Shown here: positions 3,674 to 47,687 of the stretch, in pieces
Layout: each line of letters starts with the position of its first letter
Position numbering within the stretch: the first letter of the stretch is position 1
NCBI GenBank assembly: GCA_963678705.1
Contig: OY783209.1
Coordinates: forward strand, 6,138,001-6,202,000
From: Panorpa germanica
Taxonomy: Eukaryota > Arthropoda > Insecta > Mecoptera > Panorpidae
Length of the DNA stretch: 64,000 bases
Reading direction: 5' to 3'
Made by a program: the position numbers and the translations under genes
The notes under the pieces: model-generated
Database searches by the model: none
What the model was told of the DNA's origin: nothing
Seen by the model: the letters and a program-made list of their open reading frames with translations, nothing else

Positions 3674-5960
3674 ATTTGAAGTGTCTAGATGCAAAAGGAT
3701 GTAAGTGACAAAAGTAAAATTCTTCAGAAAACGAGTTTAAAGTTAAGATCGTGTAAGCGTTGTCGTTCAGTAGGTTTTAGAATTCACTTTGCGCCACTAA
3801 ATAGTTTAGTACATCTTCTATCGTTTGCGCTCGTTATCTCAAATTTTCAAAATTTGTCACTTTGCTTCTAGACGCCTCATTTGTGGAACACTCCACAAAT
3901 CGTTGACGAGTAAAAAAGTTAAGTAACACAAGTAATTAAGCGTTAATGAAAATGTTAAATGTTTTATTTAACTGTAGATTTAAATCATAACATAAAAACG
4001 TAATTATCAAAGTTTCATAAACGATATCTTATCAGTAAAAAGCTTTTATTCTCGCTAAAACCTTCTTTCCGTTTGCAAAAAAAGCTTCAGAGACTTAAAA
4101 AATAAAAACCGTGTCCTTAAAATAGCACCAGTGAGTAGCTATTAAACTATATAGCTACAATAAATATTTGACTTAACAAGTTATTTAAGATTATAGTAGA
4201 GTTATTACTTCTAGAATAAAGATATCATAAAATTAATAAAATATGAGTGTAATAAAAACAGGTTATAAAAGGCAACAAAAGTCCGGAAAAAATACGACAG
4301 ACGTGGTGCGACTGTGGGTAAGCGCTAGGGTATGTGCATTATAACGATTTGTGTGGATTTATCATCAACACAGCATAAAATTGTAATTAAATATGGTCAG
4401 TTTTTATAAAATACACGATACTTAGGTTTCATTTCATTACTCAGATGTTTGTAACATTCAGTGAACGTTCTGCATTGAAAAAAAATAATATTTTAATAAT
4501 GCAAATAATAATTAATTATAATAAACAGTGGTCAACATTATCGTCGGTCAAGCCACCCTGATAATTATTTATTTAGATTTATAAGTATTTTTTTTCACAT
4601 GCATCTATTTACAATAATATCTGACTTATAGAAATTTAAATTACATATGGTTTTTATAGTACCAACTTTCAAGCAATATCTGTCAAAGTTTCATGACATT
4701 TCAACTAATACTTTAGGAGATATAGTGGTTTTAGTGATACTACTTCAGTAATTTTCAAAACAATGAAAAAATCTGAATATTGTTTATTGATAAACCATTG
4801 CAAAAAGCGCAATGGAAAAAATACCGTTTAAGCAAGTAATAGCTTGACAAGTATTATTTATACTCGGATTTGTTAATAGTGGCGCCATTTATTCCACATT
4901 GAACCAACAACCATTATTTCCACAAAATTATAGGTAATATACGCAAAAGGTTTTTTGACAAGAAAATATTTAATGTTTTTATTTTAGACGACTCCTGAGA
5001 AAATCTTACGAAACCGACCATCGGTAAGCCTTCTGCCAAACGTTTCTCACGAAACAGATTATATCTCCACCATTTTTAATATTTTTAAATAATTTTTGAT
5101 GTAAATATATCCACAAATGTATTAAATGAATTTAATGATAATAAATAAATATTTAGAGATATACTCTATATGAGTATACAGATAAAAAAAACATATTCTT
5201 ATCCATAAAAATATATTCTTTTTATGCTAATTTTGTACCTTAATGAGCAATATAAACATGTGCAAGTTTTGAAAATTACACTTTATAATATAACTAACCC
5301 TTACTACATATAATTAAAGTTGTAAACTTCAGTTATTAATTTGACGCCGTCATTTTATTGATAGGAACGTCATCACCGAGAAGAACACCTCGCGAACCGC
5401 AGTTTCTAATTACTACTTAATAGTTTCGTTTCCAACATTCTCTATTTACCACATTAAAGTGTCTTTTACGTAACATTGTAATTACAGAAAATAATTAATT
5501 AATAATTTTCCTCTCACTGCTCATTTACATGAATATATTTTTAATTTGCCTGCATTTACACAATATTTTCCAGGGCTTTCTATTTCCTTTAATACCTGCT
5601 ACACAAACACAAACGCTGTGATTACGTAATATAGACATAAATTATACGTTCTGTATCAATATAACTATGTAACGAATATCTGAAAACTAAAAACTGAATT
5701 ATAAACTAAGTTAGGGTCTTATTCTATATATATTTTATATTTAAGCCCTTGGTAATACCCTCCATTTGATTGAAATGTATAGACAGATGACTAGATCTAA
5801 TAAAATAACAAATGAGGGGATGTTGGGGTAAATAAATAAAATCAAGATACCCGAATTGAAAGCATAAACAAAATTATAAATTTTTTTCATTATTATACTG
5901 AAAACAATTAGTTAGTTTGTTTGTTTTTCTTATGAAGTAGTTTTATTCTTTTAAAAAAAA
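3674..5960. other. AT-rich spacer
   Basis: No gene, RNA gene or clear repeat boundary is visible in these 2.3 kb. It separates the mariner relic from the start of the small-gene block. The core promoter of the next gene should lie near its right end, but no TATA box or initiator stands out against the AT-rich background. Confidence 0.5.
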
Positions 5961-6545
5961 ATGAGTTTTAGCGAAGATGGTTCCGATAATAGGTCTCGTC
6001 GTTTACAGAGTAAGTCCTCCCAGGGTTCAGATGGTCACAACGCAATGATTTACACGGACCCAGATGCGTCGTATACATCGTACCCCCTAGCATCTGGGTC
6101 CCCATCGCAGCGTAATTTGAGGTACAGAAATTCAGCAAATATGAATGCGATATTTGGAACGGAAGACCCTAATTGTAAATATGGTTTACACTACGAAAAC
6201 CCTAATGCAAGAAGTCAAATTAAAGATAAAGGTGAGTCGAACAGCTCCGCCAACATGAACGCGATATTCGGTACGAATAATCCAACGCCCAGACAATGCC
6301 ATTATCGACACAGTGATAATATTGGCGATATTATCAACGATGGATGCACAATAGGCAAGCATGAAGATACTTCCGTCAGTGACAGTCAAAAACAATGTGA
6401 CTATTCGCAACCACAACAACCAACTCCGAACCAATCAACTGGGATGGCTCAAAAGGTTGATCATCCAGCCCCAGCACCAGCCCCTACTCCACCAACTCCA
6501 CGAAAACGCGTACCTCCAGGAGGTTATTCTTCAGGACTCTGGTGA
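5961..6545 (+). CDS. Jupiter/HN1 (JPT)-family-like protein, intronless
   Basis: A 194-residue frame from an ATG preceded by a run of A. The C-terminal end RVPPGGYSSGLW (183-194) matches, from memory, the conserved PPGGYSSGLW terminus of the insect microtubule-associated protein Jupiter. The decapeptide SANMNAIFGT occurs twice (58-67 and 96-105), with a weaker third version near 118-126. It resembles the MASNIFG motif of Jupiter and vertebrate HN1/JPT proteins. The rest is low-complexity, rich in Ser, Asn, Gln and Pro, as is usual in this family. The N-terminal LRPPGGGSS motif typical of Jupiter is missing. Known members bind microtubules; whether this one does is inference. Lack of introns and the shortened N-terminus suggest a paralogue or old retrocopy rather than the main Jupiter gene. 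AATAAA signals lie downstream near 6676 and 6716. Confidence 0.7.
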   Translation: MSFSEDGSDNRSRRLQSKSSQGSDGHNAMIYTDPDASYTSYPLASGSPSQRNLRYRNSANMNAIFGTEDPNCKYGLHYENPNARSQIKDKGESNSSANMNAIFGTNNPTPRQCHYRHSDNIGDIINDGCTIGKHEDTSVSDSQKQCDYSQPQQPTPNQSTGMAQKVDHPAPAPAPTPPTPRKRVPPGGYSSGLW

Positions 6546-9198: not shown

Positions 9199-9605
9199 AT
9201 GAAGAAAAAGATAGCATGGAAACCTGCGCGTCCAGTTTACAGATACTACATTAAATCTTCCGATTATACTGGTCAGAAGCCAAATATTCCAGAATATTTA
9301 TTAACAGAAGAGGTTGATTTATCAAAATTGCTATCGATGGAATACAACAGAAAGTGGTGGGATGCAAACAAGATGTATCATGCTCAAATATTGTCAAGTG
9401 ATGACGAGAATTACTTCATCCGTAAATACATAAAAAGAATTAAACATAATATCTTTTAAATATAAAAAGCGATATGGCATTATAAATGAAACAGTTTAAA
9501 AGTGTTCTTGGATTTGACCCTAAGAATTCTTGGCCTGGAGAAAGAAAGAAACAGAAACTTAACGCTGATAGAGAAAGTGCATTAAAAGTGCAGAGAAGGT
9601 GCTGA
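9199..9605 (+). pseudogene. tandem-family copy 2, decayed
   Basis: The frame from the ATG at 9199 runs 86 codons. It keeps the family's N-terminal block (KSSDYTGQKPNIPEYLL), the MEYNRKWW motif and the KRIKH segment, then meets TAA at 9457-9459. Homology resumes in another frame at 9486: MKQFKSV corresponds to the second conserved block, followed directly by FDPKNSWPGERKK, as in copy 1. About ten codons between these (the PAKTKHYHG part in copy 1) are deleted. A stop, a frameshift and a deletion make this a relic, although an 86-residue truncated product is still possible. Confidence 0.75.
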
Positions 9606-10377: not shown

Positions 10378-10414
10378 ATGAAGAAAAAGACAGATTGGAC
10401 ACCTGCACGTCCAA
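10378..10414 (+). pseudogene. tandem-family copy 3, 5' fragment (cut by the LTR element)
   Basis: An ATG followed by codons for KKKTDWTPARP, closely similar to the start of copy 2 (KKKIAWKPARP). After CCAA at 10411-10414 the LTR begins, and translation would stop within it after 13 residues. The rest of the gene resumes at 21741 in the same reading frame. Removing the element and one copy of the CCAA duplication leaves an open frame of 155 codons plus stop, so the gene was probably intact until the insertion. Confidence 0.85.
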
Positions 10415-11384
10415 TGTAACAGTCCCATATAGATTCATTAATTATTGATAATATATTTTAACTAACTATTTAGGAACCATTGGATGGTTCAAATACAAAG
10501 TAGTTTTAATAGTTTTAGGCGTCTAAATGTCGTGAACATTATTTACATTAAGTATTGCTTTATCGATAGAACCATGTTCGTATATTAGTATAATATTCAA
10601 AATTGCTGACATAATATTTACAATAACATTTAAGAGAAATATTAATTAACTTCGTTTGTTGAAGGCACGTGTAGCTTTTGGGCGTGAAGCACGTGGAGTT
10701 TTAATTAATGTTTATGTTGGAACCAAATATGAAAAGTCCAAAGAACTGACGGAATGACGGAATGTCATCTGACTTTAGTAGTGATGACGAAATAACATTT
10801 GAGTTCAAACGAGTTCATATATTCAAACAAAGAGCTTTAATCTATATAAGCTTAGTTTAAGAGAGTAGAGGGGGGCAGTCCATTCAGATCAATCAGCCAG
10901 TTAGTACGTCGAGACCCAATCGAAAGGTCTAAACAGACCCCGTCAAATAAGGAAGTAGCGCCCCTTAGACGGTTGGTCCGGTTTAGTCAGTCGCTTTGAT
11001 ATAATAATGATAAAATTACTAAGATTTGTATTAATTAAGTATTTGAATAATAAAGAAAATAGTGTTAATGATTCCCTTGTTTTAATTGTAAAAGTACTTA
11101 GAGTTAACGGCCGCGTCGCGTTAAATAAAGTGATTGTCCAAAGCAGAAGAAGCTGCCTGCAGAAAGTACAAAAAGTAAGTAAAACCTAATATATTTATGT
11201 AATATGATTAGATGAGGTAATAAGTCCTGATAGTTATATATACCTCCACAATTAGCTCAGGTCATCCGACTCAAGGTGATCCAGATCACTAAACGAACTT
11301 TCGCATGAGACGATTGTAGTATCGCTCTCATAAAATAAGTAACTACCACCATATATAGGTAGAGATATAAGGGGTAGGGTTACA
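10415..11384 (+). repeat. 5' LTR
   Basis: 970 bp, TGTAAC...GTTACA ends. A TATATAAG box at 10843-10850 suggests a start of transcription about 30 bp downstream, in the GGGGGCAGTCCATTCAG region. AATAAA polyadenylation signals lie at 11049-11054 and 11124-11129, so R should end shortly after. TGACG-type motifs near 10745-10790 could bind bZIP factors, but this is a guess. A 60-codon open frame at 11007-11189 is probably fortuitous. Confidence 0.95.
10843..10850 (+). promoter_or_regulatory. TATA box of the LTR promoter
   Basis: TATATAAG within the 5' LTR (same position in the 3' LTR at 21199-21206). It is placed about 200 bp before the first AATAAA, consistent with a U3-R arrangement. Confidence 0.6.
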
Positions 11385-12654
11385 TTTTGGTGTCAGGTGT
11401 GGGGTCAATTAAAAGAAAAAGAAAGGTGTATTGAAAAGAGGTGTATTAAAAGAGAAATATGTTAAAAGAGAGGTATTGAAATTGTGGGGTCACATTTAAA
11501 AGAAAAAGGGTATAGAAATTGTAAGGTATTTTGAAAGAGAGATACGTTAAAAAAGGTATTAAAATTGTGGGATATTAAAAAAGGCAGAAATTTGAGTAAT
11601 TTGGAAAAAGGCATTAAGTGGAAAATTTAATTTGAGAAAATAAAGAGGTAAATCTTAGTAACTGGGAAAAAGAAATAAGAATAAGTTTTATTAATTGTGA
11701 AAAAAGGAATAAATTGTAGTAACTGGGAAAAAAGATAATTGTGAAAAAAGGAATAAATTGTAATAACTGGGAAAAACGGATAAAAAGGATTAATTGGAAA
11801 AAATATAGGTTATTAATTGCAACTAGCAACTGCAGATTAATAATTAGAAAAAGAAAAGATATCAGCATAATTCAAGAAAAGGGAATATTTAAATAATCAA
11901 AGAGTGGGGTATTTTAAGTTTTTGTAAAAGGGAATAAATTTAAGGAACTAAACAGTAGATAATTTTTCTAAACCATAACTTGTTAAAGTTGAATATTGTG
12001 TTTTAACCGTAACTAAATAAGGGATATTTTTTTAAAATAGTTTTTGTAATTCACAAGTAAAGTGGCACGTTTTTATAAAGTATAAAGTTTAGAGTCATTG
12101 TAACAGGAATTGAAAAAATAAGTAGTTTTTGTTTTGTCGTAATTTTATTAAGTGATTGGAACGATTAAAAAATTTGTAACACAACTTATTTGAAATTATT
12201 TTGAATTTATTTTTAGATTATATGAGAAAATATTGAGTATTACATAAAATAGTTTATTTGATTTTATTTAACTAATAATTAAAAATAATTTTATCAATTT
12301 ACAATTCGTTAATATACTTTTGTCATAAATACTGTTTGTCATAATTTTTATTTGAGTTTTTATTGTTCTAAAACAGTTATTAGTTATACTAGCATTTTGT
12401 TTGACCTACTTAAAAATAATTTGTTTGTTTATTTTTATGTATATATAAACAACTAGACGTTCCATTCCGTTTCAAAAAGTAAAACACAAGCGTACAGTTT
12501 TGTTAAAATAACTAAGGCCGTGTAAGATATTGTTTACTTTTAAAAAAAAAAAAATAGATTTGTTTTAACGTCCAAGATTGTAAAATATTTGTAGTAGTTT
12601 TTGAAGCTTACTAAAGGTTTTTATTTGATTTAAAGTTTATTCTAAATAGTTAAA
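11385..12654 (+). other. long untranslated leader with degenerate purine-rich repeats
   Basis: 1.27 kb between LTR and gag without a coding frame. It is strikingly poor in C on the plus strand. A unit of about 45 bp containing TTGTGAAAAAAGGAATAAAT and then TAACTGGGAAAAA recurs at about 11694-11731 and 11740-11776, with a partial copy near 11655. Looser GTATTGAAATTGTGGG-type units recur from about 11401 to 11570. It may hold packaging or translation signals; no function is visible. Confidence 0.7.
11388..11405 (+). other. primer-binding site
   Basis: TGGTGTCAGGTGTGGGGT begins three bases after the 5' LTR. TGG pairs with the CCA end of a tRNA, and the remainder resembles, from memory, the complement of the 3' end of insect tRNA-Leu (…CCTGACACCA). 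The exact tRNA needs to be matched against the host set. Confidence 0.7.
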
Positions 12655-13767
12655 ATGACAACTAATGAACCAAACGCAGTTATTGCCCCAGAAATTCCTA
12701 AATTGAAAGGATTGAATTATATACCATTCTTTGACGGTACAGGTAGCATAGCAACATTTTTAAATGCGGTGAATCAAATGGCAGAGTTGTTGGATTGGAC
12801 CGATAAGGTACAATCAGTTACCGTATTTGCGAAAGTGTCGCCTGATGTAGCTGAATATCTTTTGTCTAATTCGGAGGTTCAAAGTGAGAACCGTAGTTAT
12901 ATGAGTATTCGTAATGCATTATTGTCTAGATATAGCAGAAAAGGACCATCTGCTCTGAGACAAGCAGAAATTGAGTTCGGGGGTTGTAAACAAAGACATG
13001 GCGAGACTGTTTATGAATTTTCACAAAGGTTATGGGCATTAGGGTCAAAATGTGTACCAGAAGCAATTGATAAAGAGCAAGAAAAGAAGCTTACAGTTGA
13101 GTTGCAAGTAGCCGTTTTAAAAAGATTTAAAGAAGGGATATCGCCGAGATATTCTAAGTTTATTTGGGCCGTGGATCCCAAGAGTTTTAATAGTGCCGTT
13201 GAAATTGCGGAAAGAGTAGAAACCGATGATTTAGTCTCATCGAAGCAAGGCTACGTAGCAGAGATTGCTACAGGTGGTACAAACCGAATAAATAGAACCG
13301 ACCACTATTATGTAAATCGCACATCTCAAAATAATCAATCGTCTATGCGACCTAGCAACTCGCGTAGCGGTTCACAAAGCCGAAGGTTAAATAATAGGCA
13401 AAGAGATGGAGTAAGATGTTACAATTGTAACAGAGTAGGACATTTTCAGAGAGATTGTCGTAGTCGTCCTCAAAGGGAAGTAAGAGATCGATTTCAAGGA
13501 AATCGCAGTTCAAAAAGGTATGAAAACCGTAGTCAAAGTAATGACCGATTAGGGAGAGTTAGAGTCCTCCAAGAATATAATGATAGCCGTAGTCCTGCGA
13601 GAAATCAGAGACAAGTGACTTTCCAAAGTAACAGAAATATTCGCAGCATCGAAAATAAGCCAAGCGAAGTAGAAGAAAGAAATTTACGCGCGTCCAATAA
13701 TTATGAGGATAATTTAAACGGATTGATGGCTTCACTCACTACCCGAGACGTAGAAGCCATTCAATAA
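12655..13767 (+). CDS. gag: Gag polyprotein of the LTR retrotransposon
   Basis: 370 residues from an ATG (context AAAATGACA). Residues 1-200 form a Ty3-type Gag domain; the stretch LRQAEIEFGGCKQRHGETVY (101-120) followed by EFSQRLWALG is typical of retrotransposon Gag. Residues 205-250 are rich in Asn, Ser and Arg. A CCHC zinc knuckle, C255-x2-C258-x4-H263-x4-C268, lies within an Arg-rich nucleocapsid-like region. It assembles particles and packages RNA by family knowledge. The frame ends at 13765-13767, sixteen codons past the frameshift site at 13713-13719, where a fraction of ribosomes would enter pol. Confidence 0.95.
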   Translation: MTTNEPNAVIAPEIPKLKGLNYIPFFDGTGSIATFLNAVNQMAELLDWTDKVQSVTVFAKVSPDVAEYLLSNSEVQSENRSYMSIRNALLSRYSRKGPSALRQAEIEFGGCKQRHGETVYEFSQRLWALGSKCVPEAIDKEQEKKLTVELQVAVLKRFKEGISPRYSKFIWAVDPKSFNSAVEIAERVETDDLVSSKQGYVAEIATGGTNRINRTDHYYVNRTSQNNQSSMRPSNSRSGSQSRRLNNRQRDGVRCYNCNRVGHFQRDCRSRPQREVRDRFQGNRSSKRYENRSQSNDRLGRVRVLQEYNDSRSPARNQRQVTFQSNRNIRSIENKPSEVEERNLRASNNYEDNLNGLMASLTTRDVEAIQ

Positions 13768-13782
13768 GTAATCAAAAGGGTA
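13713..13782 (+). promoter_or_regulatory. programmed -1 ribosomal frameshift signal at the gag-pol junction
   Basis: The heptamer T TTA AAC (13713-13719) is correctly phased in the gag frame (codons TTA 13714 and AAC 13717) and fits the X XXY YYZ rule. Six bases later an uninterrupted 8-bp stem forms between ATGGCTTC (13726-13733) and GAAGCCAT (13753-13760). Loop bases TACCC (13740-13744) can pair with GGGTA (13778-13782), giving an H-type pseudoknot. The pol frame is open from just after a stop at 13710-13712, so the slip must occur in exactly this window. Pol lacks a nearby ATG. Function is inferred, but all the parts are visible. Confidence 0.85.
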
Positions 13783-13793
13783 ATCTTACAGAG

Positions 13794-16700
13794 TTGTATG
13801 TACCGGCATTTCATGATAATCAATGGTTTCTTAATTTAGTAATTAATGGTCAAAATTGTAACGTTCTTATAGATAGTGGTGCAGGCGCCAGCCTACTAAC
13901 TAGAGAATGTTTAAAAACAGAAAAAATTACAGAATCGCAAAATATTTTGCGAGATGCACAAAATAATAAAATACATACACTTGGTAAAAGCAGATTAAAG
14001 TTAGATTTATTTGGGGATAATGTGACTTTTGATTTTGAAATTGTAGAAAATATGGAAAATTGGACAGGGATAATTGGGTTAGACTTTCTTCGTAAATTTG
14101 GGATAATTGTAGATTTTGGAAAGGGTATTTTAATATACAGAAACGTTATTTACGACATTAATCGTAATACTGTACATGATTTTCAGAGAGATAACTTAAA
14201 TATAAATAATATGATTAGAGAAAATGTAAATGGTATCATTAGAAAGCAAAAGCGTATTATATCAAAGTCAGGGAAAATCGTAGAAAAGAATAGAAAAGGT
14301 AGAAATATAGGTTGTACTGAAACAGAAAATATTGACGTAAAAAAAGAAGTAAATAATCAGCGAATTGATAAGATAGGGCACGATTATAAAAGTTTTGATG
14401 ATTTTCTAAAATGGAAAAATAGTAGATTTCCAACGATAGAGACGTTGTGCAGTATAAATTTTAATAAGGGAGATTTGTTTAATGCATCTAGCAAGTATGC
14501 ATTGGGTCATTGTGTAGCCTCAGATTTACGTATGTCACAAGGAATAGCAGTTGAATTTAAAGAAAGATTTGGTAGAGTTGAGCAGCTTTTGAAACAGAAA
14601 CAGGAAAAGGGTGGATTAGCTATATTAAAAGATGAAAATCGTTTTATATATTATTTAGTGACAAAGAAGAGGAGTAACGAGAAACCTCTCTACGCAGATT
14701 TATATTCGTCAATAATTAAATTACGGGATCATATGTTAGAAAATAAAGTGAAATTTATTGCATTACCATACATAGCATGTGGGCTAGATAAATTGGATTT
14801 TACAATAGTGAGTAAAATGATTGAATATATATTTTCTGAAAGTAAAATAAAGATAGCATTCTATGATGGCGAATCGGAAAAAGATGAAAAAAGGTATATG
14901 AGCTGTATAATAAATGAAAATGATAAAGATTTTAAAAGTAACATTGACGGAAAGAATGTTAAATCCCAAGAACAGGTAAAGAAATGGAAGAATTTACAAA
15001 CAAAGTGGTTAAAAAGAATACACACAGCTGAGCGAGTTGAAAAAATAAACATAAATATGAATGAGAAATCTGAAACCACTCGAAAGCGAACAGACGCACA
15101 CATGTGTAGTAGTAATCGGTATAGTGTTAGGTTACTAGGTCAAGAAACGTTACCGCCCCGATGTACAATAAATGTTTATGCATTTCAAAAAGACATTAAG
15201 GAAGGTCATGGGATTTTTAACCCAGAATTGAGTATAGATGGAGTATTAGTAGCAAGAAGTGTAAATTCAATATGTAAGGGTAGGTTAATATGTAGAATAA
15301 CCAATGTTACGCAAAAGAATATTAATATACCAATAAATACTAAGATAGGTATAATAGAGCCATATGATGACGAATATACTGAAACAGTTGAATTATTAAG
15401 AGAACACGTCCGGCAACGTAATAAAAATATTTTAATTGGTGCTGTACGATCAGCAGAAACAAACACAGGGTTTGAAAATATACAATTATTTGATGAAATA
15501 GGTTATAATAATTTAACAGCTAAAGAAGATAAAATTATACATGAAGTTACCAATCAGTGGAAGCAAAAAAGTCATAAGAATGATGATATAAATAAAACAC
15601 AGAGAATAACGGAACTTTTTAGCAAAATAAAGTTAAATCATTTAAGTGCTAGAGACCAAAGTAAAATGGAAAATTTAATTTACGAATATCGCGACATATT
15701 TTTAACAGAAGGTCAAGAATTGAAAACTACCTCGATAGTTAAACATAAGATAATAATTCAAGATGTTCCTCCTATAACTAAACAACCATATAGAGTTCCG
15801 CATGCACAGTTACAGGTACTGAGAGAACAGATAGATCAAATGCTTGAAGATGGCATAGTAGAACCATCAATGTCACCGTGGTCCAGTAATGTTGTTCTTG
15901 TAAATAAGAAAGCAGCAAATGGGGAAAACAAGGTTAGAGTTTGTATAGATTACAGGGGTCTTAACTCAATAACAAAAAGAGATTACTTTCCATTACCATA
16001 CTTAGTAGACACTCTTGATAAATTAGGCAAAGCAAGTTTATTTACCAAATTAGATTTAGCATCGGGATTTTGGCAAATTGAAATGGACGAAAAATCTAAA
16101 GAATTAACAGCATTTTCAACACCTGATTTACACCTTCAATTTAATGTTATGCCGTTTGGGTTAGTATCAGCTCCTGCTACATTTCAGAGACTTATGTATG
16201 CAGTGTTAGCGGGTTTAACCGGAGTACATTGTTTAGTTTACCTAGATGATATTATAATATTTAGTAACGATGATGTAGATTCACATATTCAGAGAATTAA
16301 AGAGGTTTTCGATCGCTTGAGAGAAGCAAGTTTGACATTGAAGCCTAGCAAATGTGAATTTATGAATAAAGAAACGCAATATCTTGGTCATATTATTTCT
16401 AGTGATGGTGTAAAGGCAGATCCAGAAAAAACGGAAGTAATTAGAAACTATCCGCGTCCGAAAACAGTTAAACAAATCCGATCTTTTATAGGGTTAGCTT
16501 CATTTTATAGACGATTTATAAAGAATCTTTCAGAATTATCATCAAGCCTAACAAAACTAACTTGCAAAAATGAGTCATTTACTTGGGGACCTGAACAAGA
16601 GAAAAGTTTTGAAGCATTAAAAAACGCGTTATGTTCTGAGCCAGTCTTAGCTTACCCAGATTTTAGTCAAGAATTTATATTAGGTACAGATGCATCAGGA

Positions 16701-18629
16701 ATCGCATTAGGCGCAATCCTAAGCCAAGTTCAGGATGGAGTAGAACGTCCTGTCGCATACGCTTCTCGTAAATTAAATAAATGTGAGAAAAATTACTCAA
16801 CCACAGAAAGGGAATGTTTAGCGATTTTATGGAGTTTATCACATTTTCGTACGTATTTATATGGTAAGAAATTTAAGATTCAAACAGATCACAGATCATT
16901 ACGTTGGTTAATGACTATGAAAGATCCAATGAAAAGTAGATTAGCAAGGTGGGCTTTAACTTTAGCAGATTACGATTTTGAAATTATTTATAGACCAGGG
17001 GTAAAACACGGTAATGTCGATGCATTAAGTAGAATAGAAACAGAAAGTATTGCAGCCGTAGCAGCTGAAGAAGTTCCATATTGGGATTGGTGTCAAATTA
17101 AAAATGAACAAGCTAGTGATTCCCATATTAAACAATTAATAACACAAACTAAGTATGGGGAGAAAAATGATTATTATTTAGATGATAGGGGTATATTGTA
17201 TAAGAAAAGTAATGAAAAAACAGATAGAAATGACTGTGTAGTAGCACCAACACGAATGGTACCGAATATATTGTATATGTTTCACAATACGCCTTCAGCA
17301 GGGCATAGGGCATTTGAAGGGACACTACAGATAATAAAGAAACATTTTGTATGGCCAGCAATGAGACAAGACATAAAAAGATATTGTGAAGAATGTTTAA
17401 GCTGTCAAATGAGAAAAACTTCACCTCATTTAAAACGAGCACCGTTACAGAAATTTAAACCGCTTACTTATCCATTTGAAAGAATTTCACTAGATATTGT
17501 AGGACCATTAGTACTCAGTAATTCAGGAATGAAGTACATTTTAACAGTTCAATGTGCATTCTCAAAATACTTGCAAGCGTTTGCAATACCTGATCAGTCT
17601 GCAGAAACGGTAGCAAAGGTATTTTGTGAACAAGTTATAGCACGTTATGGTACTCCTAAAGCTTTATTGACAGATAGAGGTACTAACTTTTTGTCCGAAT
17701 TATTTAGAAACGTTTGTAAGAGACTAGACATTACGCAACTTTCAACATCAGCGTATTCTCCTTCGACAAACGGAAGTTTAGAACGTTGTCATCGTATATT
17801 AAAAGACTATTTGTCACATTTCGTGGATTCTGATCAAAGGAATTGGGATTCCTGCTTAAACTACGCTGTCATGGCATACAATGCAGCTATACATAGTTCG
17901 ACACAAGAAACACCATTTTTTCTAATGCATGGTCGTGATATGGTATTACCATATGGTGAAGTATTAAAACCTGAAAGAGTTAGATACGACCTCGATGATA
18001 ATTATGCCGCCGAATTAATTTTAAGATTAAAGAACGCTTTTAAGTTATGTACAGAAAGGTTAGAAACAGCAAAAGATAGACAAGCTAAACAATATAATAA
18101 AAAGTCGGAACCGGTCAAATTTAAAATAGGTGATCATGTGCTATTGAAACATATGACGCACACACCAGGATTAAGTAGAAAGCTTGGAAAAGTATGGCGA
18201 GGTCCTTATAGAATTATTGATAGAACCAGCGAAGTAAACTTTTTAATAAAGGAAATTTATGGAAAACGGGAAGAACGAGTGCATGTTAATCGCCTCAAGA
18301 AATTTAAAGGTAATACAGCTGAGGTATTCTCAGGAAATAATGAAGTTCATTCAGAAAGTGAATCTGAAGATGAAGAAAATGGTACGAATCTAAATACAGG
18401 TTTCGGTAATTTATTGAATTTTGGTTATACTAATGATACGAATAATGATATATCAGATGAGATAGAAGAAATAATCGAGATAGACACGAATATTGATAAT
18501 AATGACAATATAGAGAATATTGATATTGAGATAGAAAATCCAGTTGAAGATACAATTGGGCATAGTTACTCTTTGCGCAGCCGATGCGTTGCACCAAAAC
18601 AACCGTGGATATCGAATAGTAGAATATAA
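13794..18629 (+). CDS. pol: Pol polyprotein: protease, macro domain, RT, RNase H, integrase
   Basis: 1,611 codons from 13794 (a TTG, not a start); the frame is open from 13713 and should be read by -1 frameshift from gag, giving a fusion of about 1,990 residues. In order: aspartic protease (DSGA at 27-30); a basic linker; a macro domain (about 220-358); a linker with a LPPRCTINVYAF region near 453-464; reverse transcriptase with FTKLDLASGFWQ (750-761) and YLDD (816-819); RNase H (TDAS at 965, Glu1007, Asp1032, Asp1076). Then integrase: zinc finger H1164, H1171, C1201, C1204; catalytic D1234, D1294, E1330 with 35-residue spacing; and a GPY/F-type module (VWRGPYRIIDRTSEVNFLI). The tail is highly acidic and ends in YSLRSR. 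No stop or frameshift is seen, so it is probably functional. Confidence 0.95.
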   Translation: MYVPAFHDNQWFLNLVINGQNCNVLIDSGAGASLLTRECLKTEKITESQNILRDAQNNKIHTLGKSRLKLDLFGDNVTFDFEIVENMENWTGIIGLDFLRKFGIIVDFGKGILIYRNVIYDINRNTVHDFQRDNLNINNMIRENVNGIIRKQKRIISKSGKIVEKNRKGRNIGCTETENIDVKKEVNNQRIDKIGHDYKSFDDFLKWKNSRFPTIETLCSINFNKGDLFNASSKYALGHCVASDLRMSQGIAVEFKERFGRVEQLLKQKQEKGGLAILKDENRFIYYLVTKKRSNEKPLYADLYSSIIKLRDHMLENKVKFIALPYIACGLDKLDFTIVSKMIEYIFSESKIKIAFYDGESEKDEKRYMSCIINENDKDFKSNIDGKNVKSQEQVKKWKNLQTKWLKRIHTAERVEKININMNEKSETTRKRTDAHMCSSNRYSVRLLGQETLPPRCTINVYAFQKDIKEGHGIFNPELSIDGVLVARSVNSICKGRLICRITNVTQKNINIPINTKIGIIEPYDDEYTETVELLREHVRQRNKNILIGAVRSAETNTGFENIQLFDEIGYNNLTAKEDKIIHEVTNQWKQKSHKNDDINKTQRITELFSKIKLNHLSARDQSKMENLIYEYRDIFLTEGQELKTTSIVKHKIIIQDVPPITKQPYRVPHAQLQVLREQIDQMLEDGIVEPSMSPWSSNVVLVNKKAANGENKVRVCIDYRGLNSITKRDYFPLPYLVDTLDKLGKASLFTKLDLASGFWQIEMDEKSKELTAFSTPDLHLQFNVMPFGLVSAPATFQRLMYAVLAGLTGVHCLVYLDDIIIFSNDDVDSHIQRIKEVFDRLREASLTLKPSKCEFMNKETQYLGHIISSDGVKADPEKTEVIRNYPRPKTVKQIRSFIGLASFYRRFIKNLSELSSSLTKLTCKNESFTWGPEQEKSFEALKNALCSEPVLAYPDFSQEFILGTDASGIALGAILSQVQDGVERPVAYASRKLNKCEKNYSTTERECLAILWSLSHFRTYLYGKKFKIQTDHRSLRWLMTMKDPMKSRLARWALTLADYDFEIIYRPGVKHGNVDALSRIETESIAAVAAEEVPYWDWCQIKNEQASDSHIKQLITQTKYGEKNDYYLDDRGILYKKSNEKTDRNDCVVAPTRMVPNILYMFHNTPSAGHRAFEGTLQIIKKHFVWPAMRQDIKRYCEECLSCQMRKTSPHLKRAPLQKFKPLTYPFERISLDIVGPLVLSNSGMKYILTVQCAFSKYLQAFAIPDQSAETVAKVFCEQVIARYGTPKALLTDRGTNFLSELFRNVCKRLDITQLSTSAYSPSTNGSLERCHRILKDYLSHFVDSDQRNWDSCLNYAVMAYNAAIHSSTQETPFFLMHGRDMVLPYGEVLKPERVRYDLDDNYAAELILRLKNAFKLCTERLETAKDRQAKQYNKKSEPVKFKIGDHVLLKHMTHTPGLSRKLGKVWRGPYRIIDRTSEVNFLIKEIYGKREERVHVNRLKKFKGNTAEVFSGNNEVHSESESEDEENGTNLNTGFGNLLNFGYTNDTNNDISDEIEEIIEIDTNIDNNDNIENIDIEIENPVEDTIGHSYSLRSRCVAPKQPWISNSRI
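14451..14867 (+). other. macro domain (OARD1/TARG1-like) inside Pol
   Basis: Pol residues about 220-358. GDLFN (226-230), LGHCVASDLRMSQGIAVEFK (237-256), LKQKQEKGGLAILK (266-279), FIYYLVTKKRSNEKPLY (284-300) and LPYIACGLDKLDF (324-336) align along their length with OARD1/C6orf130, the hydrolase that removes ADP-ribose from glutamate. The human enzyme uses Lys84 and Asp125; the equivalents here, K291 in VTKKR and D332 in ACGLD, are both kept. One glycine of the IGCG loop is Ala. Base composition matches the rest of pol. The domain is in frame, without introns, between protease and RT. Hydrolase activity is inference. Confidence 0.9.
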
Positions 18630-20770
18630 CTAATTATAACTGTCAGAGTTTCAATAGGATATAAATTAGTTAAGGTCAATTTGAAAAAGGGATTATTTTA
18701 TCGTTTAAGTAGTTGTTAAAGGGACTAATATGGTACTTTAATATTTTACGAGTAAAAGAAACATAAAAACAGAAAGGTCATGAGTTGAGAAAATAAACAT
18801 ATAATTAGAGACTAAAGTTATTTGTAACAGATGTATTGAAATTCGAGTCAGAAAGGTCATAGAAGAAATTAACACTTGAGAATATAAGTGAACATAAATA
18901 AGATTTCTAACAGGGGGTTGGAGAACATAAATTAGATAAGGGTACAATAATATACAAATTAGACCAGAAGTTACAGATGTACGAAACATGAGTAACAATA
19001 ACGTTTAAAGAATAATTATTTTTATGTTTTATTGAGATATACTAATGCTATATAATTTCAGATGGACAAGATACATAATAAATGCAGCAAACAGGATGAG
19101 ATGACTTATTTGAAGATTTTATATCATAAATATTGAATAAATTAAAATGTTTTTCTGTTCACAGATTGTTTTGGAAACTTTAATAAAGAAAGAAGAAGAT
19201 TTGAAAATTGATAAGAGGTATTCATTGAAAATTTGAACACTTGTAATGTTAAATTGCATTGAGATATAATATAGTAAAAAGAAAGAGAAATTTTATTTTG
19301 TGAAGCACATGTATTACTACATGCGAATATAAAAAGTTGTTTTAAATTCAAGTAACAAGTGTTGAAGTTTAATAATTATGTTTACCTTGACTATAGTATT
19401 TGAGTAAAGTATCTATAAAATTAAGATTTTGTTGTTTAAAAAATAATAAATAGAGTTAAGAATAATTTTTGATATAACCATGTTAGAATAATGTTTTGAT
19501 TTGAAAGAAAAAAATATAATAAATTTGTTAAATGGGAAAAATACAGTAAATAAGAATAAGTTCATTAAAATATTCATTAATAAAAGTATAAACTAAAGTA
19601 TGAAATATTAATTCTAAATTTAAGAGAAAAGTTAAATTTGTATTTTAATTAAAGGAAAAAATATGTTTACATTAAATTTCATTATTGTGTAGAATTAACA
19701 GTAGTTTGTAAGAGATGTGAAAATAATTTATGGCATAAATATTGCAAAGTTGGAAAACATATATATAACAATCAAAGAAAAAGAAAGTAATAAGATATTG
19801 ATGATATTAAAAAAAAAAGAAACACATGCCGTAAGATATTTACATGTTATGTTTAAAATATAACTAAAATAACTAGAAATTAAGATATGCTATGAAATAA
19901 ATTCATATTTTGTAATGACTATAACTTCTAAGAAAAGTTAATCGAATTATTAGTAAAAGAGCTATACAAGAGCCAAATTTGTTATGTCAATTGTAAGAAA
20001 TTATAGAAAAGAAGACAGAAAATGAATTTATAATTAAGATAATTACGTAAGGGTATAAATTGCAGCATTTACAACAACGAGGAACTGAAGGATGAGACAA
20101 ATAGTTGATTTTCATAATGCGTAAGACTAAGGTAATAAGTGTGAATACTTGAACGAGTCAATGAACGAATGTACGAGAGAAACTACCAGAATGCAAGCCG
20201 TTATGAGATGAAGATTCCGATGAAATCGACGCAAATTGAAAAAGATGAAGAAAACAATACAAAATGACGAAGTACGTGAATAATCGAGAAGAAATTAAGG
20301 GTCTAAGTGAAGCAGTAATCACTTAAGAAGAAAACATATATCATATGTGTATTAATCTACAAGTATTGTAAACAGAACGAGAATTTACAAATGTAATGGA
20401 CCATTAAAAACTATCAGTATTGTTTATGCAACCTACGGAAATATGAAGCCAGATGCAAAGCAGTAGGGAAGGACGCATTCGAAAACAAACCAAGGCAGAG
20501 CGTATTCGAAACGAAGAAAAGTATTCACTTATTTATCAAGGTTACTCGCATATTGTTATGAAACTATGAGAATGAAATCTACCTATATAAAGCAGATAAA
20601 GAAGAATTATTTTAATTATCAACGACTATATATTATTGATTTATTGATTTAAATTTTAAATTACATTTATTTTATTAAGGTTTCAATTATGAATGAATCT
20701 AGAAATACGGGAAAGACTAATAAAATTATAATCATTGGATTATAGATTTTAATTTAAAAACGGGAAGCAA
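18630..20770 (+). other. post-pol non-coding region of the retrotransposon (no env)
   Basis: 2.1 kb between the pol stop and the 3' LTR. It is A/G-rich on the plus strand, with only short frames on either strand. Nothing resembling an envelope gene (signal peptide, furin-type site, membrane span) is seen. It could be a degenerated third gene or an RNA-level region; I cannot tell. Confidence 0.7.
20755..20770 (+). other. polypurine tract
   Basis: AAAAACGGGAAGCAA immediately before the 3' LTR, mostly purine, in the position expected for the plus-strand primer. It is interrupted by single C residues. Confidence 0.6.
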
Positions 20771-21740
20771 TGTAACAGTCCCATATAGATTCATTAATTA
20801 TTGATAATATATTTTAACTAACTATTTAGGAACCATTGGATGGTTCAAATACAAAGTAGTTTTAATAGTTTTAGGCGTCTAAATGTCGTGAACATTATTT
20901 ACATTAAGTATTGCTTTATCGATAGAACCATGTTCGTATATTAGTATAATATTCAAAATTGCTGACATAATATTTACAATAACATTTAAGAGAAATATTA
21001 ATTAACTTCGTTTGTTGAAGGCACGTGTAGCTTTTGGGCGTGAAGCACGTGGAGTTTTAATTAATGTTTATGTTGGAACCAAATATGAAAAGTCCAAAGA
21101 ACTGACGGAATGACGGAATGTCATCTGACTTTAGTAGTGATGACGAAATAACATTTGAGTTCAAACGAGTTCATATATTCAAACAAAGAGCTTTAATCTA
21201 TATAAGCTTAGTTTAAGAGAGTAGAGGGGGGCAGTCCATTCAGATCAATCAGCCAGTTAGTACGTCGAGACCCAATCGAAAGGTCTAAACAGACCCCGTC
21301 AAATAAGGAAGTAGCGCCCCTTAGACGGTTGGTCCGGTTTAGTCAGTCGCTTTGATATAATAATGATAAAATTACTAAGATTTGTATTAATTAAGTATTT
21401 GAATAATAAAGAAAATAGTGTTAATGATTCCCTTGTTTTAATTGTAAAAGTACTTAGAGTTAACGGCCGCGTCGCGTTAAATAAAGTGATTGTCCAAAGC
21501 AGAAGAAGCTGCCTGCAGAAAGTACAAAAAGTAAGTAAAACCTAATATATTTATGTAATATGATTAGATGAGGTAATAAGTCCTGATAGTTATATATACC
21601 TCCACAATTAGCTCAGGTCATCCGACTCAAGGTGATCCAGATCACTAAACGAACTTTCGCATGAGACGATTGTAGTATCGCTCTCATAAAATAAGTAACT
21701 ACCACCATATATAGGTAGAGATATAAGGGGTAGGGTTACA
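20771..21740 (+). repeat. 3' LTR
   Basis: 970 bp, offset by exactly 10,356 bp from the 5' LTR and without any difference I can see by eye. Identity of both LTRs means that little time has passed since insertion. It is followed by the CCAA target duplication and the rest of tandem-family copy 3. Confidence 0.95.
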
Positions 21741-22175
21741 CCAATTTACAGATATAACATAAAGTCATCTGATTTTACTGGTAAGAAGCCATTTATTCCT
21801 GAATATTTATCAGATCAGGAAGTGGATGTGACGAAATTACTGGCTATGGATTACCACAGAATGTGGTGGCATGCAATAACGATGTATCAAGCTCGAATGG
21901 CTGGCGGTGCTGGTGATAGGTTCTTTTTTCGTACATACGTTAAAAGAATTAAACACAAAATTCTGGAAAATCCAAAAACAAAGTTGGATTTTTCAATGAA
22001 AAGATTTCAAAACGTTCCAGCAAGAACAAAACATTTTCAAGGGGATAAATTTGAACCCAAGCATTCTCAGCCTGACGAGAAGAAGTTGGACAAGAAAGCT
22101 TCTACTGAGAAAGCTTCTACAGGGAAAGCTTCTTCAGAGAAAGCTTCTACAAAGAAAGCTATCGAATGCGTATAG
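21741..22175 (+). pseudogene. tandem-family copy 3, 3' fragment
   Basis: Continues the frame interrupted at 10414. It starts with the PIYRYNIKSSDFTGKKPFIP block, then MDYHRMWW, KRIKH, and FSMKRFQNVPARTKHFQG. The C-terminal tail is made of about four units of a 15-bp repeat giving KAS(T/S)xK steps (22097-22160). Stop at 22173-22175. The fragment has no ATG of its own before the conserved block. Transcription from the adjacent 3' LTR could produce an N-truncated product, but I see no evidence for one. Confidence 0.85.
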
Positions 22176-24047: not shown

Positions 24048-24669
24048 TGGGCTTGTGTCCTATGTTTTAATTTCTATAAAAGTGTACTATATATTGATAA
24101 AGTGGGTTACTAGAATCTCGAATGTTCAATTATTTTTTAATAACTCCTTATATGTTAAGAGATATTAACAATTAAAAAAGTCATTTTGTCTTTTTAATTA
24201 TTAAAGGGATTCAACGTTGTACACATTCCAAGTGCATGTGACATCACAATCCTTGTGTAAGGTTACCAACCTCATAAATCTCTGCTATATGTATTTATAT
24301 ATCAAAATATCAAATATTATTTACAGCTATTTCAAGGAATAATAAAATTTAAATATTATGTCTGCTTTAGCAGGGTTAAATAAAATAAAAACTTATTATT
24401 CTTTCACTTAACTTGATTATTTGACTACCAACAACTACAGAACATTACCACAGCACTGACCTACTCAACGAATAACTGACGTTAAAATGCATTTCACGTC
24501 ATACAAATATGGCCGACCATTTCCAGCGCTAAAACTACAATTCAAATTTTTAATTTCTATATCTCCGTTTAGATATTTAATAAAACAGACACACCAATAC
24601 ACATTTATTAACATCAATTTCAATCAACAATTGAAAAATCGACCACTAAAAAATGAGGACACAAGCCCA
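24048..24669 (+). mobile_element. MITE family A, copy 1 (complete)
   Basis: 622 bp with perfect 13-bp terminal inverted repeats, TGGGCTTGTGTCC and its complement. No coding capacity. Four related copies in the window lie in the same orientation (28841, 41122, 44381, 47150). The target duplication is unclear. The interior carries conserved strings such as AATCTCTGCTATATGTATTT and ATGCATTTCACGTCATAC. Confidence 0.85.
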
Positions 24670-24959
24670 TTCCAAAACAGGCCAGGCGCTAGTACGCTGC
24701 ATAAACTCTATGATATATGTTCATTTTAGCATACAGGTCAATTACAGAAATCATTACACTATATTAACCTAAAGAACATGATGCAAATGGTAAAGTTGTA
24801 ACGTTGAATGGGCAACATTTGTTTTTCGTAGTAGGCTATGCTAATCACGAACAAATAAATTAGTTTATTATTTATTTTACATTACGAGTTTAAGTAATAT
24901 AATTTTATATTTAACAATTAATTTTAATTTTAGATATATTTTAAATTAAATATACAATA

Positions 24960-28840: not shown

Positions 28841-29164
28841 TCATAAATCTCTGCTATATGTATTTATGTATCAAAATATCAAATATTATTTACAGCTATT
28901 TCAAGGAACAATTAAATTTTAATATTATGTCTGCCTTAGCAGGGTTAAATAAAATAAAAACGTATTATTCTTAAAATGCATTTCACGTCATACAAATATG
29001 GCCGACATTTCTAGCGCTAAAACTACAATTTAAACTTTTAATTGCTATATCTCCGTCAACATTTAGATATTTAATAAAATAGACACGCCAATACACATTT
29101 ATTAACATCAATTTCAATCAACAATTGAAAAATCGACCACTAAAATATGAGGACTCAAGTCTAT
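28841..29164 (+). mobile_element. MITE family A, copy 2 (truncated)
   Basis: Homologous to the right half of the element at 24048, starting at the CATAAATCTCTGC string and ending in a degraded right terminus. An internal stretch of roughly 80 bp (the part with CACAGCACTGACCTACTC) is deleted. Confidence 0.8.
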
Positions 29165-29939
29165 TAATGAATTCATTTTAAAAGAATAACAGAACACAAT
29201 CAAGCAATTGAAATAACTTCTAAAATAAATCAGTTCCATTGTTTGTAATTTGAAATTAATTGAAGGAAATTAAAACAAGTTCCAACATGTACATGTATTT
29301 ACATATTTTTTTGCATTTGGATACATTTGTACATTTGTACCTCCGACCGAACACAACATTATTTGCATAATTTATTACACGAGTACCTCCAACACTCTCC
29401 CCTCTCTTCTCCTCACCACACGTCCTCTTCACCAACCCACAACTCAACTGATTTGAATAAAACAGATTGCTCTCATCATGCTACGGAAAAATTAAATTAT
29501 AAAAACAATTTCAAATTGAATTTTAATTATTTTCAACTATTTTCCGACAGATAATTGTTGAATTATTTTTATTAAAAAAACAAAATGTAATTACGAGAGC
29601 TCATTGAAAAAGATTTGTGAGAATTAAAAACATTTTAGTATTTTTATGGAATAAACTTACTCATTTATTTGCTGGTTTCAGTTGAGTGAATTTTATCATT
29701 AGTGTTTTCTTTTATTAACTCCATACACAATAGTAATACCTGCTGAACACAGTTACATGTATTTAATATTTATTTAACGTAAAAATGTTACCTTTTACGC
29801 AGTGCTACAGTAAATTTTATTGGAAAGTCATGGTTCACTAGGAGTGCGCCAACTTTTGCACAGTTTTACATTCTTACATACGAGTATTTTGCACAATATC
29901 CAAATATTTATTTTTATTGAATTGTGACGAGAGTGATGC

Positions 29940-41121: not shown

Positions 41122-41747
41122 TGGGCTTGTGTTAATTTCTATAAAAGTGTACTATATATTGATAAAGTGGGTTACTAGAACGTCAAATGTCCAATTATTT
41201 TTTAATAACTCCTTATATGTTAAGAGATATTAACAATTAAAAAAGTCATTTTGTCTCTTTAATTATTAAAAGGATTCAAAGTTGTACACATTCCAAGTGC
41301 ATGTTACATCACAATCCTTCTGTAAGGTTACCAACTTTACAGATCATAAATCTCTGCTATATGTATTTATATATCAAAATATCAAATATTATTTACAGCT
41401 ATTTCAAGGAACAATAATATTTCAATATTATGCCTGCCTCAGCAGGGTTAAATAAAATAAAAGCCTATTATTCTTTGACTTGATTTGATTATTTGATTAC
41501 CAACAGCTACAAAACATTACCACAGCACTGACCTACTCAACAAATAACTGACGTTAAAATGCATTTCACGTCATACAAATATGGCCGACCATTTCTAGCG
41601 CTAAAACTACAATTCAAACTTTTAATTGCTATATCTCCGTCAATATTTAGATATTTAATAAAATAGACACGCCAGTACACATTTATTCACATCAATATCA
41701 ATCAACAATTGAAAAATCGACCACTAAAAAATGAGGGCACAAGCCCA
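41122..41747 (+). mobile_element. MITE family A, copy 3 (complete), intronic
   Basis: 626 bp, termini TGGGCTTGTG and CACAAGCCCA, closely similar to the copy at 24048. It lies in the large intron of the EGFL7-like gene, antisense to the gene. Confidence 0.85.
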
Positions 41748-42908
41748 TTATCATGCAAATAGTGGTAACTCTACTTTATTTTATAAGAAAAATACTATAA
41801 TAAAGATTTTTCTAAATGATACGATGTTATTTCGATACGATTTTTCGTACTAGTCCATGAGCTGCATTCCATGTGGCTTTTGGTTGTTAAATTCTTTTAG
41901 CCAAACACAGGCTCATGGACTACGCTCGTCAAGATACACAACGTATATGATACATACATGAATAAAAGAGAATCAGGGGGAAAGGCACATGCACAACACC
42001 TAGGGATCTACTGTAACAATAACTATAAGCGATAATTATCGCAACGTACACTTTCCCTCGCTTCCAAGTTTCATACGATAAATCCAATGCGTCTGATACA
42101 TGCTATGCGTATCTATGAACGTTTACATTATGATAAATTATTCAAAACACCACGTGGACAAATTACCATCGCTTTTAAAATACAAAGTGGCTGTTTTTTT
42201 TAACTATCTATTTCCCATTGCACATAGCGTTGAAGAGAAATGAATTCTCAGAAATAAATCGCAATATTTTTTATAGTAGTTTTACAACCAATAAAATTTG
42301 CAGTCTGATAATTTTATGCACAATATAAAATAATAAAGATTAAATTTAAAATTAGCTATAAAACTGAACAACAGTGTATTTTGGATTTACGACGTCGAGA
42401 ATTAAGAATCGAGATTCAATGAACTCAATTTTCAGTTGATTGTTCGACTGCTGCATTCATGTGCATGTTGGTTACTTGGTTGCATATTCTACAGAATGCA
42501 GTCTGTTATGCGGGTTGTCGGACCACCGGATCGCAACCTCGTAAAAACAAACATAAAAATAATGCAAATGCATTATACAAATCTACAAGTTAATATGTCA
42601 CTCTATAAACTGTAAAACTTTTATAAAACTTTTGGCATTTATGGTTTCCATAAATAATATTTAGAAAGTTTAGTTTTTTTCTTTTGCAAGCTATAAATTT
42701 ATTCAATTTATTCAAATATTATCTGTATTGCAAGATTTATTTGATAAAATATATGTGAAACAAAATAATTTATATTAAGCTTGAATCTAATAAAACTGTT
42801 TATATAAGGATAAAGTTTATTTAAACATAAAAAAATGTATCTTTTACATCAAATTGTTGGGTTAATATAATGTAAGAATAGACGACACAGTGGGCGATAG
42901 CGTTGCTT

Positions 42909-44380: not shown

Positions 44381-44993
44381 CTATGTCTTAATTTCTATAA
44401 AACTGTACTATATATTGATAAAGTGGGTTACTAGAACCTCAAATGTTCAATTATTTTTTAATAACTCTTTATATGTTAGGAGATATTAACAATTAAAAAA
44501 GTCATTTTGTCTCTTTAATTATTAAAGAGATTCATCAATGTACAAATGCCAAATGAATGTTACATCACAACCGCTGCCAACCTTACAGCTCATAAATCTC
44601 TGCTATATGTATTAATATATCACAATATCAAATATTATTTACAGCTATTTCAAGGAACAATAAAATTCCAATATTATATCTGCCGTAGCAGGGTTAAATA
44701 AAATAAAAACTTATTATTCTTTGACTTGACTTGATTACTTCGACTACCAACAGCAACAAAACATTACCACAGCACTGACCTACTCAACAAATAACTGACG
44801 TTAAAATGCATTTCACGTCATACAAATATGGGCGACCATTTCTAGCGCTAAATCTACAATTCAACCTTTTAATTAATATATCTCCGTCAACATTTAGATA
44901 TTTAATAAAATAGACACGCCAATACACATTTATTAACATCAATTTTAATCAACAATTGAAAAATTGACCACTAAAAAATGAGGACACAAGCCA
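44381..44993 (+). mobile_element. MITE family A, copy 4, intronic
   Basis: About 610 bp homologous to the copy at 24048. The left 13-bp terminus is lost and the right is slightly damaged (GGACACAAGCCA). Confidence 0.8.
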
Positions 44994-45188
44994 ATTGTTA
45001 TAGTAAATATAGGATATTACATCCGTAGAACACAGAAGCGGCTACAAATAAATATTATTAAGTGCCATGCACTCATTATATGGCGATAAATATCTCCATA
45101 TTTGACAAAAAAAAAGAGCTAAGTAAAATTAGGTATAAAAATAGAGCAGGCGGATTAACTTTGTACATCTTCTAGATAAAATACTTAC

Positions 45189-47149: not shown

Positions 47150-47687
47150 TTTATTTTTTTAATAACTCCTTATATATTAAGAGTCATTTTGTTTTTTTAA
47201 TTATTAAAGGGATTCAACGTTGTACACATTCCAAATGCATGTGACATCACAATCCTTGTGTAAGGTTACCAACCTTACAGATCATAAATCTCTGCTATAT
47301 GTATTTAAATATATCAAAATATCAAATATTATTTACAGCTATTTCAAGGAACACTAAAATTTCAATATTATGTCTGCCTTAGTAGGGTTAAATAAAATAA
47401 AAACTTATTATTCTTTGATCTGACTTGATTATTTGACTACCAACAGCTACTGAACATTACCACAGCACTGACCTACTCAACAAATAACTAACGTTAAAAT
47501 GCATTTCACGTCATACAAATATGGCCGACCATTTCAAGTGCTAAAACTACAATTCAAACTTTTAATTGCTATATCTCCGTCAATATTTAGATATTTAATA
47601 AAATAGACACGCCAATACACATTTATAAACATCAATTTCAGTCAACAATTGAAAAATCGACCACTAAAAAATGAGGACACAAGTCCA
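47150..47687 (+). mobile_element. MITE family A, copy 5 (left end truncated)
   Basis: About 540 bp homologous to the copy at 24048 from its AATAACTCCTTATAT string to its right terminus (GGACACAAGTCCA). The left 100 bp are missing. Confidence 0.8.

Follow-up and report, generated by a model that had tools for sequence, protein, structure and literature searches.

The window analysed here, a 64,000-nucleotide stretch of the Panorpa germanica genome (contig OY783209.1, positions 6,138,001 to 6,202,000), holds one complete, young long terminal repeat (LTR) retrotransposon of the Ty3/gypsy type (10415-21740), and the Pol polyprotein of this element contains a macrodomain of the TARG1/OARD1 type. 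Several Ty3/gypsy families of this genome carry the macrodomain, as do database elements, and its place along Pol differs, with four positions in all. On balance we favour the reading that it is a working TARG1-class ADP-ribosylhydrolase, derived from an animal OARD1 transcript and made within Pol, that would strip ADP-ribose inside the particle. This reading builds on the domain itself, its predicted fold, its catalytic residues, its conservation across families, its variable position in Pol and its likeness to a host gene.

Identity of the macrodomain

A preliminary description of the window had placed an OARD1/TARG1-type domain in frame between protease (PR) and reverse transcriptase (RT), and this holds: the Pol frame is open, with the PR at 13836..14093, the macrodomain at 14451..14867 and the RT at 15906..16397. 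Homology to TARG1/OARD1 runs gap-free over the whole domain (137 residues, E 2.6e-37), and the predicted fold is a macrodomain, closest to TARG1. Both catalytic residues are kept, as had been claimed, Lys84 of TARG1 and its partner at position 125 corresponding to K291 and D332 here with a spacing of 41. The partner is Asp in the solved TARG1 chain; a passage of a review gives it as Glu125 (PMC7050489). Human TARG1/OARD1 and animal OARD1 proteins (ALC1-like macrodomain hydrolases) share the gap-free alignment, the fold, the catalytic Lys and Asp and the ADP-ribose loop with the window domain, but the latter lies inside a retrotransposon Pol polyprotein, has no introns, and reads MSQGIA for MGAGIA and IACGLD for IGCGLD. 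In the relevant passages of two papers TARG1 is described as cleaving off the ADP-ribose carried by Asp/Glu or by the phosphate ends of RNA and DNA, and as acting on O-acetyl-ADP-ribose (PMC7050489, PMC6582358). As a predicted activity, the domain should hydrolyse ADP-ribose esters.

A chance match or decayed relic is ruled out by the homology, the catalytic residues and the conservation across lineages. Membership of DarG was rejected (NCBIfam DarG, 42.3 bits against a cut-off of 250); the DarG antitoxin macrodomain differs in keeping only the Lys of the dyad and in belonging to a bacterial toxin-antitoxin pair, according to a passage of PMC7050489. NADAR was likewise rejected: five Pol pieces were searched at E up to 1, and none of them matched it.

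Distribution across families and positions in Pol

The genome of the window was searched (464 Mb, 249 contigs) and the best 150 of 597, 553 and 1,662 candidate places were taken, copy counts being lower bounds; the F1 and F2 loci are the best macro matches. The window's family, F1, occupies at least 61 places, not every one a separate copy, as some are pieces of the same one, and at least 8 have open frames of 1,636 to 1,638 codons. An insertion into a single copy is ruled out by these many places. Family F2, whose domain is 43-48% identical to that of F1, has a 1,389-codon frame at at least 18 places.

Domain order in the families was read from PR, RT, RNase H and integrase (IN) seeds. F1 and F3 have the macrodomain between PR and RT; F2, F4 and F5 have it between RNase H and IN. 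Among database Pols, the order is PR-macro-spacer in P0048, RNase H-macro-IN in P0055 (Harmonia axyridis) and P0056, IN-macro at the C-terminal end of Pol in P0049 and P0052, IN-macro-Tpt1-like in P0047 and macro-PR in P0057. In P0047 the macrodomain and a Tpt1/KptA-like domain (residues 1353-1513) end a Ty3/gypsy-like Pol. The Tpt1/KptA-like part scores 27.8 bits (Pfam cut-off 26); against solved KptA chains its best E is 0.17, and its signature is not kept (LRED in place of LRH).

Among the matches listed, 45 of the 48 F1 places found by RT have a macro place on the same strand no more than 6 kb upstream; for 43 of these the distance is 703-932 bp. At the remaining three, similarity ends 5' of window positions 14927, 15074 and 15123; two have no protease or macro seed upstream, and the third (L071) is so near a contig end (416 bp upstream) that loss of the domain is not judgeable there. 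A macrodomain had been described as a non-standard part of Ty3/gypsy Pol. It is indeed optional, being absent from families F6 to F8 at the places read (below), but it is not peculiar to the window element.

Conservation and selection

Across 12 retroelement lineages with a mean identity of 39%, 13 of 148 alignment columns are invariant, K291 and D332 among them; the search for these rows used live TARG1-type queries and is thereby biased towards intact motifs. Both catalytic residues are present in 27 of the 28 F1 loci read (one has Glu for Asp), in all 27 F2-type rows (24 distinct places, L050, L051 and L052 repeating L035, L041 and L031), in 2 of 2 F5 loci and in none of 4 F3 loci, which have Arg and Cys instead.

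Selection was estimated from variants common to at least two copies in a reference-anchored alignment, leaving macro singletons unused. Rows were dropped from F1 (two for PR, one for RT) and from F2 (two for RNase H), and F2 RT was left uncounted, its 6 unique rows being too few. The F1 macrodomain has 12 synonymous and 14 nonsynonymous variants (omega-like 0.44, P 0.031), the RT 11 and 10 (0.36, P 0.019) and the protease 6 and 5 (0.34, P 0.064). Macrodomain constraint in F1 is about as strong as that of RT. The F2 macrodomain has 12 and 9 (0.32, P 0.0084). An alternative run (MAFFT, row filter) gave 12 and 16 for the F1 macrodomain (0.50, P 0.055) and 12 and 10 for that of F2 (0.35, P 0.013); a repeat for the F2 macrodomain, in which 12 of 23 rows were kept after poor alignment, gave 7 and 9 (0.54, P 0.17) and was set aside. 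The shared-variant bias in F1 and F2 indicates that the macrodomain is under purifying selection.

Origin of the domain

The same genome holds a host OARD1 gene (C19: about 723,300-724,060; L066) with introns that have GT-AG borders, and 67 of 133 residues (50%) of its product are identical to the window domain. The likeness extends to a 28-residue stretch before GDLF, YEKFKKWENANFPALNSC against FDDFLKWKNSRFPTIETLC; its local score of 50 was reached by none of 5000 shuffles and none of 1407 other Pol windows, for a flank that was picked post hoc. In the best macro tree, a group of 15 (88/90) includes F1, F2, F3, P0049, P0052, P0056, the host gene, P0003, the Arctopsyche protein P0050 and two RNA-virus domains. 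Three standalone proteins of fewer than 135 residues and a viral-contig match were left out of this tree, and its bootstrap had not settled.

The suggestion that a host-type gene had been captured is borne out by the 50% identity, the similar flank and this grouping. The likely source, judging from sequence comparison, is the spliced transcript of an OARD1 gene of insect type; we call it insect-type because the nearest relatives are the Arctopsyche protein and the Harmonia element. Several such captures are set against a single old macro module spread by recombination between elements, an alternative that we rate as a serious one, if somewhat short of an even chance. A single clade of all 17 retroelement rows is not rejected (AU p 0.115), and the inner branches of the macro tree are weak (14 of 62 starred). 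Against one module stand the 5 label changes in the best tree (3-6 in bootstraps), the grouping of F1 and F2 with the host gene, and the four positions in Pol.

A second, degenerate macro stretch follows the first in both the host OARD1 gene (L066, about 2418-2687) and the Harmonia element (P0055, residues 643-702); it may bear on which transcript was captured.

Relatives without the domain and a degenerate version

Places were read for three further families, two for F6 (L074, L075) and one each for F7 (L069) and F8 (L070), and the macro profile gave nothing above noise at any of them. The RT of F6 is 59-60% identical to that of the window element, about as near to it as the RT of F3 (57%). 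In RT trees built solely from elements of this genome and database Pols, F1, F3, F6 and P0056 fall into a single unresolved group (89/92), and the macro-bearing L063 joins F7 and F8 (100/98). F3 had appeared as the RT sister of F1 (80/82) before F6 was added, a pairing that dissolved with F6 in the tree; a grouping of F1 plus F3 is nevertheless not rejected (AU p 0.338). Within small groups of these elements the domain is optional, gained in some cases or lost, and no fixed part.

In F3 the macro region lies in the same place as in F1, and at L043 still scores 65.8 bits with the macro profile, but the GxGIA loop is deleted, Lys is replaced by Arg and Asp by Cys, and 11 of 13 invariant residues are gone. 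The variants at five F3 loci (4 synonymous, 8 nonsynonymous, 1 stop) are not numerous enough to gauge constraint.

Several of these observations weigh against the favoured reading of a working hydrolase. F7 and F8, with frames of 1,373 and 1,318 codons, have no macrodomain in their PR-RT or RNase H-IN intervals; F6 has PR and RT at both places with no macrodomain between them (the PR-RT interval being the one read), and one of the two has an open frame of 1,439 codons. F3, lacking loop, Lys and Asp, has open frames of 1,526 codons at at least three places, and catalysis can therefore be lost while an element lineage goes on. Constraint on the F2 macrodomain (0.32) is clearly weaker than on RNase H (25 synonymous, 5 nonsynonymous, 0.08) and IN (22 and 5, 0.09) of the same family. 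Picking F1 and F2 loci by macro similarity, together with the macro queries used in the searches, under-samples dead versions. The preliminary description had named relatives without the segment and neutral decay in this lineage as what would speak against it: such relatives exist in F6, F7 and F8, but neutral decay in this lineage is not borne out.

Structure and age of the window element

The element had been taken for a recent, open one, and its LTRs are identical and its Pol frame intact. Its features are as follows.

10411..10414, no strand: target site duplication CCAA, left copy, from reading of the sequence (right copy 21741-21744)
10415..11384, + strand: 5' LTR (TG...CA), identical to the 3' LTR, an exact repeat
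11388..11405, + strand: putative primer-binding site TGGTGTCAGGTGTGGGGT, after the 5' LTR
12655..13767, + strand: Gag, 370 residues, CCHC zinc knuckle (zf-CCHC, E 2e-6)
13794..18629, + strand: Pol, intact open frame
13836..14093, + strand: aspartic protease (gag-asp_proteas 29.9 bits, cut-off 28.2; RVP 24.3 bits, cut-off 20.7)
14385..14450, + strand: N-terminal flank of the macrodomain YKSFDDFLKWKNSRFPTIETLC, resembling the flank in the host OARD1 gene
14451..14867, + strand: TARG1/OARD1-type macrodomain, catalytic K291 and D332
14868..15905, + strand: spacer from macrodomain to RT, no family match above cut-off
15906..16397, + strand: reverse transcriptase (RVT_1 in two pieces, E 1.2e-6 and E 2.7e-23; the first, at 28.8 bits, slightly under the cut-off of 29.6)
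16584..16973, + strand: RNase H (RT_RNaseH, E 1.4e-42)
17247..18302, + strand: integrase, with H2C2 zinc finger, rve core and p58 C-terminal domain
20756..20767, + strand: putative polypurine tract AAAAACGGGAAG, before the 3' LTR
20771..21740, + strand: 3' LTR

The element shows the marks of Ty3/gypsy: an LTR pair with TG..CA ends and a target duplication, the order PR-RT-RNase H-IN in Pol and a zinc knuckle in Gag. CCAA flanks it on both sides. The exact repeat spans 973 bp (10412-11384 and 20768-21740), of which the TG-to-CA part is 970 bp; its first three bases (CAA) are a chance match of the LTR end with the flank. We take 11388..11405 to be the primer-binding site, with no tRNA matched, and 20756..20767 presumably is the polypurine tract.

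Between Pol and the 3' LTR, no open reading frame of at least 80 codons was found on the + strand, and these 2.1 kb (18630-20770) may be untranslated or a decayed third gene. Directly 3' of the 3' LTR, 21741-22017 is 72% identical to 9232-9507, 0.9 kb before the 5' LTR, and because of this resemblance the element may sit in an older duplication. Elsewhere in the window, five places (24060-24671, 28971-29179, 41128-41761, 44381-45009 and 47155-47700) have in common a repeat that reaches about 630 bp, with 89-94% identity. An open frame at 5955-6542 ends in PPGGYSSGLW and repeats SANMNAIFGT; it has no Pfam match and is reminiscent of the Jupiter/HN1 family.

Proposed function and alternatives

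As part of Pol, the domain would be packaged into the virus-like particle in the same amount as RT and integrase. Host transferases may attach ADP-ribose by ester or phosphoester bonds to Gag or Pol, or to element RNA or cDNA ends, and the domain would remove these groups so that reverse transcription or integration keeps going, most probably in response to ADP-ribosyltransferases of the host. Packaging, enzymatic activity, target and benefit are thus what we infer. Because the domain lies at four different Pol boundaries, its role appears not to be tied to RT or IN, and the enzyme need only be delivered, like the retroviral dUTPase. That enzyme, too, was captured and has a clean-up task, and its place is either the protease region or the junction of RNase H and integrase; it differs in removing dUTP and in its unrelated fold. 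The absence of an active domain from F3 and F6-F8 would be consistent with a pressure varying by family, time or tissue, or with a small benefit. More specifically, insect-type hosts might restrict Ty3/gypsy elements by ADP-ribosylation of element proteins or nucleic acids, an undescribed defence, the elements having taken the host TARG1-type eraser, perhaps repeatedly, and placed it at whichever Pol boundary tolerated insertion, with F3 disarmed and F6 to F8 without it; this we regard as possible but doubtful.

A role in RNA-end repair or small-molecule clean-up, in which Appr-1"-P, O-acetyl-ADP-ribose or ADP-ribosylated RNA ends would be dealt with after tRNA primer or genomic RNA cutting and repair, seems unlikely to us. 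It draws on P0047, whose Pol ends with a macrodomain and, after it, a Tpt1/KptA-like domain, on the CNPase or macro-domain open reading frames that fish epsilon retroviruses are said to carry in a passage of PMC4977317, and on the NADAR domains reported, in the part of the paper concerned, from brown-algal Gypsy Pol (PMC12477816). The Tpt1-like part is found by Pfam, however, in one of eight macro-bearing Pols (window, P0047, P0048, P0049, P0052, P0055, P0056, P0057), and there matches solved KptA weakly. That the segment is a passenger or spacer, captured without present function, harmless to the polyprotein and freely gained or lost, we consider improbable: it would account for the F3 region kept with its active site gone and its handful of mostly nonsynonymous variants, and for macro-less families nesting among macro-bearing ones in the RT tree, but not for an active site invariant over 12 lineages, the shared-variant bias in F1 and F2, or the domain upstream of RT, at much the same distance, at nearly all F1 RT places.

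Chromodomains in chromoviruses sit at the C-terminal end of Pol, after integrase, and the macrodomain occupies that position in P0047, P0049 and P0052. It could by analogy read chromatin and target integration, tethering the element to ADP-ribosylated chromatin or damage sites, and macrodomains can be readers according to a passage of PMC7050489. The PR-RT position in F1, the RNase H-IN position in F2, F4 and F5, and the conserved hydrolytic Lys and Asp, needless for a pure reader, make this the least probable of the alternatives. Because of its position and conservation we prefer a hydrolase delivered with Pol to an integration tether.

Relation to known systems

In full-text searches of open-licence papers, neither the listings nor the passages covered mention a macrodomain within the Pol of Ty3/gypsy elements, and in the main text of a survey of NAD-ADP-ribose domains in viruses (PMC9503650) neither 'retrotranspos' nor 'Metaviridae' occurs. 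Accessory domains are described, in the abstract of PMC9289625, as rare in LTR retrotransposons. Judging by the relevant passages, the brown-algal NADAR elements are alike in being Ty3/gypsy Pols with a captured NAD/ADP-ribose-processing domain, but the NADAR fold is unrelated and the authors' blastp matches are almost exclusively bacterial (PMC12477816), whereas here an animal OARD1 gene appears to be the source. Orchid Ty3/gypsy elements described in part of PMC9289625 carry an AlkB N6-methyladenosine (m6A) demethylase, active in vitro, likewise a captured host-type modification eraser, but as an additional open reading frame and an RNA demethylase. The fish epsilon endogenous retroviruses (Basta et al. 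2009, via PMC4977317) share a macro domain in a reverse-transcribing element; they are retroviruses, the frames are additional ones, and the macro class is unstated in that passage. An LTR element with a captured eraser is thus a known kind; we found no report, in the passages covered, of the class and breadth seen here.

RNA-virus macrodomains also lie in a replicating parasite's protein, and those of P0046 and P0058 resemble TARG1, but these viruses do not reverse-transcribe. P0046 (Banna virus VP5, a seadornavirus) has at residues about 442-578 a TARG1-type macrodomain 50% identical to that of the window; it groups with the Arctopsyche OARD1-like P0050 at 100/91 in the macro tree, which suggests capture from an insect. 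P0058, a 2280-residue polyprotein with RNA helicase and RNA-dependent RNA polymerase, has one near its C-terminal end (residues 2053-2189). Scanned with the window protein alone, viral contigs gave no relative; with the macro alignment they gave one match (L001, 593-997, on a 78.8-kb IMG/VR contig), TARG1-type, 39% identical, with Lys and Asp kept.

The occurrence of the same domain in several element families at different places suggests that it aids replication or escape from host control. A conserved ADP-ribosylhydrolase across Ty3/gypsy families, at four Pol positions, points to a little-studied ADP-ribose step in retrotransposon life, for which the active-site-dead F3 and the macro-less families of the same genome are natural controls. 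A passage of a review speculates that RNA ADP-ribosylation may aid recognition of transposon-derived or viral RNA (PMC7050489), and the domain described here would be the element-side counterpart to that idea.
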